Positions 15,655-17,037 of a stretch of DNA of 64,000 nucleotides are shown here, one piece after another (the stretch's first letter is position 1; each line of letters starts with the position of its first letter). The position numbers were made by a program, and so were the translations under genes. The notes below the pieces were generated by a model. The model saw only the letters and a program-made list of their open reading frames with translations. It did no database searches and had not been told where the DNA came from. The DNA lies in NCBI GenBank assembly GCA_001771575.1, contig MEUD01000001.1:541277-605276 (forward strand). Reading direction: 5' to 3'. The DNA is from a candidate division WOR-1 bacterium RIFOXYB2_FULL_45_9 (lineage in GTDB: Bacteria > Margulisbacteria > WOR-1 > O2-12-FULL-45-9 > XYB2-FULL-48-7).

Positions 15655-15879
15655 TTATTCCAGTTCACTTAAGACTTTTTTATATACTTTTTTAATTTTA
15701 GCAGGTAATTTTGGGTTCAACAATTGAAGGAGATGCTTGCCTAGAATACGATATTGTCCGCCGATCTTGGCCGCTTTGAGGACCCCTTTCCGAATGAGGC
15801 GGCGAAACGTCGAATCAGAGATCTTCAGGAGCGAAATAGCCTCTTGAGGCGTATAGACTTCGTTCTCTTGGATGCCCAT
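15655..15879 (-). CDS. small MerR/excisionase-type HTH DNA-binding protein leading the sugar operon
   Basis: [37 protein letters not shown] winged-HTH signature; 13 nt upstream of pseB. Confidence 0.8.
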
Positions 15880-15886
15880 ATAATAT

Positions 15887-15915
15887 AGTATAGGAGGTTA
15901 TTCAGGGGCTGTCAA
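15887..15915 (-). promoter_or_regulatory. sigma70-type promoter, TTGACA-17-TATACT, 7 nt from HTH ATG
   Basis: minus strand TTGACA GCCCCTGAATAACCTCC TATACT ATATTAT ATG; counted by hand. Confidence 0.8.
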
Positions 15916-15918
15916 GTC

Positions 15919-15956
15919 CTAGTCAGATCTAGTCATTACTAGTCTTTCCACTAGTT
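15919..15956. repeat. phased direct repeats GACTAG (minus), starts at 10, 10 and 12 bp
   Basis: CTAGTC at 15919, 15929, 15939 and CTAGTT at 15951 (+ strand), immediately upstream of the -35. Confidence 0.8.
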
Positions 15957-17037
15957 GAGCGATCGCCATTGAAGCGGTCAGACCTGGGGATTCGATCCCG
16001 ATCAGATTGATAAAACCGGGATAACCGTTAGCCGACTCCTCTTTAATAACAAAGTCGCGGAAACCGTCGTCCGGGCCCTGAAGTTTTGGCCTGATCCCGG
16101 AAGTATCCGGGCTAAGCATCTCTTCTTTCAACCAGGGGAAATAGGTCCTGGCCGCGTGGTAAAACTCCGTCCGCTTAGCCGGGTCGACCTCATAATTTAA
16201 ATTCTCGCCATAATGGGCATCAGGCCCTAAACGGATCTGTCCGGTCAGGTCTAGCGTGGCGTGGACTCCAAGTCCATATCCTTTCTTATGAGGGACCGGA
16301 TAAACCAGATGGTGAATTTTCCCTTTGGCCCCGGGAATGGAAAAGTAATCTCCTTTGCATGGATAAAGATTATAATGCAGTTTTTTGACATCGAAACCGG
16401 CCAATCCAGCAACCTGGTCCGAACCCAGCCCGGCCGCGTTAATAACCTGTTCAGCCAGGATTTTTTCGCCGTTCGAAGTTTCAATTATATATCCACCGGA
16501 TTGTTTACTGATACCGGTAACTTCATGATTAAAAGCAAAAAGCGTTCCATTGGCCTGCGCCTGCTGGTAGTAATATTTCATTAAACCGTGGGAATCAATG
16601 ATCCCGGTCGTGGCCGACATGATCCCGGTCAGGGCAAAAACATTCGGTTCCAGCTTTTTAACTTCGGCTTCGGTCAGCAGGCTGATCCCCGGAACGCCGA
16701 TCGCCTGGCAATTCTGATAGATATTCTCGATCTCTTTTTTTTCTTCTTCATTGGTGGAAATGATCACTTTTCCGCAATTTTGGTATTTGATCCCGGCCGC
16801 TTTGCAAAGTTGATAAAGGAGCGGGTTTCCCTCAAGGCATAGTCGGCTCTTCAGAGTATTGGGAGGATAATAAATACCGGCGTGGATAACTTCGCTGTTC
16901 CGACTGCTGGTCTCCTGGCCGAAACCGTCATGTTTCTCAAAGACTATCAGATCACCGTCATGTCGGTCACTTAACACCTTGGCAATGGCCAGGCCGACAA
17001 CGCCGGCGCCGATTATTGAAACAGCCACCTTTTCCAA
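15919..17037 (-). CDS. lhgO: L-2-hydroxyglutarate oxidase-like FAD oxidoreductase
   Basis: SIIGAGVVGLAIAKVLSDR, SSRNSEVIHAGIYYPP, VINAAGLGSD, FINLIGIESPGLTAS. Confidence 0.85.
   Translation of the reverse strand: MEKVAVSIIGAGVVGLAIAKVLSDRHDGDLIVFEKHDGFGQETSSRNSEVIHAGIYYPPNTLKSRLCLEGNPLLYQLCKAAGIKYQNCGKVIISTNEEEKKEIENIYQNCQAIGVPGISLLTEAEVKKLEPNVFALTGIMSATTGIIDSHGLMKYYYQQAQANGTLFAFNHEVTGISKQSGGYIIETSNGEKILAEQVINAAGLGSDQVAGLAGFDVKKLHYNLYPCKGDYFSIPGAKGKIHHLVYPVPHKKGYGLGVHATLDLTGQIRLGPDAHYGENLNYEVDPAKRTEFYHAARTYFPWLKEEMLSPDTSGIRPKLQGPDDGFRDFVIKEESANGYPGFINLIGIESPGLTASMAIAQLVERLVMTRSD

Follow-up and report, generated by a model that had tools for sequence, protein, structure and literature searches.

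A small BldC-like helix-turn-helix protein with phased direct repeats at its own promoter, a probable autoregulator of a surface-sugar operon in Candidatus Saganbacteria

The window, a 64,000-nucleotide stretch of contig MEUD01000001.1 from a bacterium of candidate division WOR-1 (Candidatus Saganbacteria), carries a long row of co-directional genes for surface sugars on the minus strand. The gene for a small helix-turn-helix (HTH) protein heads the sugar-synthesis part of this row and follows an LhgO-like gene and polysaccharide export genes. The genes at the locus were the following.

52..1179, minus strand: 3-dehydroquinate-synthase-like protein; the co-directional run goes on past the window
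1176..1844, minus strand: second cytidylyltransferase
1841..3706, minus strand: protein of 621 aa without a Pfam match at E 1e-8
3703..4611, minus strand: methyltransferase
4574..6061, minus strand: Wzx-like flippase
6054..6602, minus strand: GNAT acetyltransferase
6599..7639, minus strand: PseI, pseudaminic acid synthase (NCBIfam 500 bits, cut-off 340)
7639..8097, minus strand: PseH-like GNAT acetyltransferase, under the PseH NCBIfam cut-off
8090..8905, minus strand: xylose-isomerase-like TIM barrel protein (domain match)
8857..10158, minus strand: class III aminotransferase (domain match)
10169..11059, minus strand: cytidylyltransferase-like protein (domain match)
11044..12027, minus strand: GFO/IDH/MocA oxidoreductase (domain match)
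12024..13526, minus strand: B12-binding radical SAM protein (domain match)
13516..14649, minus strand: PseC aminotransferase (NCBIfam 520 bits, cut-off 424)
14652..15641, minus strand: PseB, UDP-GlcNAc 4,6-dehydratase (inverting) (NCBIfam 543 bits, cut-off 408)
15655..15879, minus strand: HTH gene, 74-aa stand-alone MerR/BldC-like winged HTH, Arg type, helix SDSTFRRL
15919..17037, minus strand: LhgO-like FAD oxidoreductase upstream of the HTH gene; its last codons overlap operator units 1-3
17041..17985, minus strand: Wzz-like (GNVR) protein upstream of lhgO
17954..18694, minus strand: Wza-like polysaccharide export protein
18883-19917, plus strand: divergent ORF of 344 aa upstream of wza; Pfam gave no match at E 1e-8

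Since PseB, PseC and PseI exceed their NCBIfam cut-offs and a PseH-like protein is present, the operon headed by the HTH gene is, by these assignments, a pseudaminic-acid-type pathway. The likely start of PseB is the ATG at 15641, with GGAGG at 15650-15646. The B12-binding radical SAM enzyme within the cluster hints at an unusual sugar modification; genome G012 has a homologue at the equivalent place (68% identity), and also a homologue of the 621-aa protein (45% identity). The earlier note had given the operon about 16 genes. The window does contain about 16 co-directional genes, but the run extends beyond its edge to about 30, and it may form one or more transcription units with read-through from wza-wzz-lhgO.

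The region upstream of the HTH gene was analyzed. The minus strand reads AACTAG-N6-GACTAG-N4-GACTAG-N4-GACTAG-GAC-TTGACA-17-TATACT, in which TTGACA-17-TATACT is an 11/12 match to a sigma-70-type promoter. The following features were assigned.

15951..15956, minus strand: AACTAG, first repeat of the earlier note; 12 bp away, out of phase, inside lhgO
15939..15945, minus strand: putative operator unit 1, AGACTAG, in 10-bp phase with the next units and matched by the matrix from other genomes
15929..15935, minus strand: putative operator unit 2, TGACTAG (phase, and matrix from other genomes)
15919..15925, minus strand: putative operator unit 3, TGACTAG (phase and matrix); holds the lhgO stop codon
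15910..15915, minus strand: predicted -35 box, TTGACA
15908..15914, minus strand: putative operator unit 4, TGACAGC, 11 bp from unit 3; overlaps the -35 box
15898..15904, minus strand: probable operator unit 5, TGAATAA, 10 bp from unit 4; sits in the spacer between the -35 and -10 boxes
15887..15892, minus strand: predicted -10 box, TATACT, ending 7 nt before the ATG

The array unit in the window was thus read as TGAC-N-R every 10 bp, in an array that takes in the -35 box and one spacer unit. The repeat string had been described in the earlier note with exact letters, and its three GACTAG copies do recur at 10 bp; however, the AACTAG copy at 15956-15951, out of phase and reading AACTGG in a sister genome, is probably not an array unit. 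The sister genomes are about 91-97% identical throughout, too close to reveal extra operator constraint. A matrix built without the window's genome ranked this site first in the window, and the next three matches were the neighbouring array units; shuffled windows nearly reached the top score for single pairs, and the run of consecutive units is the notable part. The exact string GACTAG-N4-GACTAG occurred twice in the 1.67-Mb genome, both times at the HTH promoter (reversed control, 0). In the same genome an 18-mer consensus allowing 3 mismatches matched only the HTH promoter site, and a looser pattern gave three more matches, all overlapping long open frames and not exceeding the reversed control. 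No array was found upstream of wza in the window. Because other strong sites were not found in its own genome, the HTH protein would most likely be a dedicated autoregulator.

The HTH mRNA is probably leaderless, judging from the predicted -10 box. A promoter was mapped (by prediction) for 22 genes of the family described below, and in 17 of them the -10 box ended 6-12 nt ahead of the start codon, so most of the orthologue mRNAs are probably leaderless or nearly so. Longer leaders were seen in G020 and G012, where ribosome-binding-like sequences precede the ATG.

The protein itself was examined by profile and fold comparison. As the earlier note had stated, a 74-aa stand-alone MerR/excisionase-type HTH protein heads the sugar operon: it consists of a single HTH_17 domain (Pfam E 3.4e-13), without an effector domain. 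Its AF2/AlphaFold model (mean pLDDT 83) comprised a winged HTH and a short C-terminal helix of lower confidence, residues 60-73, which is absent from two paralogues that still carry arrays. The structural comparison with BldC proposed in that note came out in its favour: when the predicted model was searched against the PDB with Foldseek, the top 7 chains were all BldC, with TM (target) of 0.74-0.80, rmsd mostly 1.5-1.9 A and modest E-values of 0.007-0.04. A search of PDB sequences with the family profile gave no match up to E 1, so the link to BldC comes from the fold search and the profile comparison, the BldC reference sequence in the alignment being identical to PDB 6AMA. A classical MerR regulator was rejected: the coiled coil and effector domain are absent, and the DNA carries direct repeats and a 17-bp spacer, not a palindrome in an over-long spacer.

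Orthologues were present in 20 of 31 genomes of the class, in 23 copies with 50-95% identity to that of the window. Sampling of 43 genomes from other classes of the phylum gave none at E 1e-10. When the sample was widened to 383 genomes, just three others passed E 1e-11; these were excisionase-type HTHs of a generic kind (E about 1e-14 to 1e-16), encoded in longer frames, and their genes showed no visible array. Viral contigs yielded no relative, and literature searches found no earlier account of this HTH family.

The promoters of the orthologues were compared. The 23 copies gave 22 non-redundant upstream regions, which were picked by orthology and not by repeats; the genomes are mostly draft, and promoter and start-codon positions are predicted. 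All 22 promoters carried arrays of 2 to 5 units at 10 bp. TGAC pairs occurred 25 times at exactly 10 bp, 14 times at 20, 8 times at 30 and 7 times at 40, and were rare otherwise, while in 500 dinucleotide shuffles the mean was 0.06 pairs at 10 bp and the count never exceeded 1. Exact TGAC pairs at 10, 11, 20 or 21 bp were found in 20 of the 22 promoters (shuffle mean 0.29). The G025 promoter, an exception to exact pairs, has TGAC, TGAT and TGAA at 10-bp steps, and the seemingly empty G009 promoter has, about 580 nt ahead of the HTH gene, a degenerate phased array with a promoter. An ORF of roughly 90 aa lies between that phased promoter and the HTH gene (G009, locus L065). Across the orthologous loci the 10-bp spacing expected by the earlier note was therefore conserved, but the conserved letters were TGACN(R/Y) and not GACTAG.

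The gene upstream was LhgO-like in G000, G001, G029 and G023, and also in G025 by its translated upstream sequence. In the remaining genomes it was wzz-like or another gene, and the array was retained regardless. The pattern that would have spoken for lhgO codons, an HTH gene kept and its phased repeats lost, was not what we found: the repeats stay even where lhgO is not upstream. lhgO codons therefore do not account for the repeats, as the array is kept where the upstream gene is wzz or another.

The phased pattern was also searched for in whole genomes, as three phased TGA units plus a phased TGACA. The scan of 74 genomes of the phylum gave 7 matches, of which 6 lay at HTH promoters and 1 at a truncated HTH relic; in the 43 genomes of other classes there was none, and the reversed control gave 0. 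The relic was located as follows.

G027:C31:120525-120569, minus strand: relic operator and promoter (L097) before a 17-codon remnant of the HTH gene

This remnant (MVVDEGEVYATQDFIKK) now heads a second sugar cluster. The position suggests that the operator may have been kept for in-trans regulation by the intact copy elsewhere on the contig.

We also compared the recognition helices with the letters of the operators. The paralogues fall into two types at helix position 26, one with Arg (SDSTFRRL or SNSTFRRL) and one with Leu (SxSTFLRL), a single SRSTFMRL with Met at 26 being counted with the Leu type. Base 6 of the unit (TGACNX) was a purine, A or G, in 37/37 Arg-type units and a pyrimidine, C or T, in 20/21 Leu-type units, the one exception being a weak unit; these units were hand-picked among the phased ones listed, a few of them falling on the -35 box, and the counts carry that choice. 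Three genomes (G005, G007 and G015) hold both types with matching operators, so base composition is excluded as the cause of the split. On the tree the Leu type occupies one side of one branch, which is a single change, and the match at base 6 therefore rests on few independent events plus G019. The latter branches with the Leu clade and, like the Leu type, precedes wza- and wzz-like genes, yet has an Arg helix and purine operators.

When the neighbours of the orthologues were compared with the genes of the window, Leu-type genes mostly headed wza-wzz, and Arg-type genes mostly stood after wzz and headed sugar genes. The order in G005 was Leu-type HTH, wza, wzz, Arg-type HTH and sugar genes, consecutively. 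The data leave evenly balanced a wider proposal, in which these BldC-type filament regulators, a family specific to the lineage, have split between two orthogonal codes, Arg26 or Leu26 setting a purine or pyrimidine at one base per 10-bp unit; the paralogues would thereby control adjacent wza-wzz and sugar-synthesis operons without cross-talk, and would act in trans on relic promoters.

BldC-like proteins have been reported from about 500 species (PMC5859096). BldC itself occupies direct repeats of 9 bp in head-to-tail fashion; its R30 reads a pyrimidine-guanine step, and four bases further on the wing lies in an AT-rich minor groove (PMC5859096). Both systems have a small effector-less MerR-like winged HTH (BldC, PDB 6AMA and 6AMK, is the best PDB fold match) and a variable number of direct repeats set about one helical turn apart. 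Both also have a TpG step with an AT-rich segment four bases on, in equal register with the other strand of the BldC site, where TG-TCCG-AATT aligns with TG-ACTA-GTTT in the window. BldC too binds upstream of its own gene, as the predicted site at the HTH promoter would imply here. In the family alignment BldC R30 corresponds to R27, E16/R22 to E13/K19, L43 to I39 and G44 to G40, all invariant or conserved. R27 is invariant in the 23 proteins and TG is present in nearly every unit; R27 would be the equivalent of R30 reading the pyrimidine-guanine step, a predicted contact. The head-to-tail core of BldC (F21, V23, W31 and L43) has the counterparts L18, I20, L28 and I39, which together with E13-K19 are mostly invariant. 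Several of these core and bridge counterparts are widespread among HTH_17 proteins and so are weak proof of head-to-tail assembly. E13, R27 and the glycines are common throughout HTH_17 proteins and alone do not prove it.

There are also differences from BldC. The spacing is 10 bp here and 9 bp in the whiI crystal, and a strong base-specific unit contrasts with a degenerate AT-rich consensus. No second strong site was found in the window's own genome, against about 280 ChIP peaks for BldC. The window's protein heads a sugar operon and has paralogues with different operator letters; BldC, with about 24% identity to it, has no counterpart of the modelled C-terminal helix 60-73. The HTH/array system is a lineage-specific variant of the BldC kind. 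The HTH_17 fold is shared with RdfS (PDB 8DGL), which forms head-to-tail oligomers and autoregulates negatively (PMC11963761), and with Pukovnik Xis (4J2N), but no integrase or mobile element was seen at the window locus, and RdfS carries an additional N-terminal helix and lacks a clear consensus site. The magnetosome protein MamR (NF040990) is a related small HTH by profile (E 7e-10), but scores 39 bits against a cut-off of 100 and stands in another gene context.

The repeats, their phase, their conservation and the match with helix type are read from the sequence, and from these we infer DNA binding, head-to-tail (filament) assembly and repression. There is a good probability that the 74-aa protein is a BldC-like winged HTH which binds the 10-bp repeats of its own promoter head to tail. 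Protomers, one per helical turn and all on one face of the DNA, would occupy the TGAC-N-R direct repeats and be joined head to tail. Because the array extends into the -35 box and spacer, the bound filament would reach both and most likely compete with RNA polymerase. The outcome would be cooperative negative autoregulation, in which the regulator holds down its own gene together with the downstream surface-sugar genes of the same transcript. The BldC-like control proposed in the earlier note gains from the conserved phase, from BldC as top fold match and from an operator that tracks the helix, but its label of a switch was unsupported, and negative autoregulation of a simple cooperative kind is no less likely.

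As to the sign of control, repression is favoured, activation is given a distinctly smaller share of the probability, and dual or condition-dependent control takes the rest. BldC both represses and activates, with 91 direct targets activated (PMC6428758), and at whiI it represses from -50 to -80 (PMC5859096, PMC6428758). It is unlikely, on balance, that a filament bound upstream of the -35 box recruits or stabilises RNA polymerase, an arrangement that would make the autoregulation positive and the surface-sugar genes a bistable on/off switch. The commonest layout would suit such an activator too, as it places the strong units 20-40 bp upstream of the -35 TGAC (at -40, -30 and -20), in helical phase with the -35 box and with one unit gap left, and the activated BldC targets offer a precedent. 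However, promoters this close to consensus (TTGACA, 16-17 bp, TATAAT-like) should need no activator, and several arrays cover the -35 box and spacer: units on one or both were found in G002, G005, G023 and the second copies in G007 and G005, at near-consensus promoters, which suggests repression by occlusion. The negative autoregulation of RdfS (PMC11963761) would count for repression by analogy.

Other readings of the array concern what binds it. Some response regulators bind direct repeats (PMC5859096), and an OmpR/PhoB-type or other regulator could read the array while the HTH protein acts elsewhere; this is improbable, as the operator tracks the HTH protein's own recognition helix, also in genomes with both paralogues, and full phased arrays with a promoter were found only in HTH-bearing genomes, at HTH genes or the relic. 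An excisionase or recombination directionality factor, with the array as an attachment-site arm, would agree with the match to the NCBIfam excisionase-family domain TIGR01764 and with the close folds of Xis and RdfS, but it is very improbable given that no integrase was found among the window genes tested, no relative among viral contigs, the gene keeps its place at polysaccharide operons throughout the class, and the array is joined to a sigma-70-type promoter. Three of the window's units do lie in or at the end of lhgO; still, repeats arising by chance, as a by-product of lhgO codons or as curvature-inducing phased T-tracts with no specific reader retain hardly any probability and are refuted by the comparative data. 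Across 22 promoters, whose upstream genes are unrelated, the phase is kept far beyond what shuffles give, the window's units have no T-tracts, and base 6 is type-specific.

For BldC-like proteins outside the actinobacteria few sites or functions are known. The present set of 23 genes, from an uncultured lineage that is close to Cyanobacteria and is itself without genetics, combines readable, strongly phased predicted operators with a natural change of specificity and a candidate in-trans relic site. It makes the sequence code and the one-turn spacing of head-to-tail winged HTH binding directly testable in vitro, and it offers a candidate control point for surface polysaccharide synthesis.
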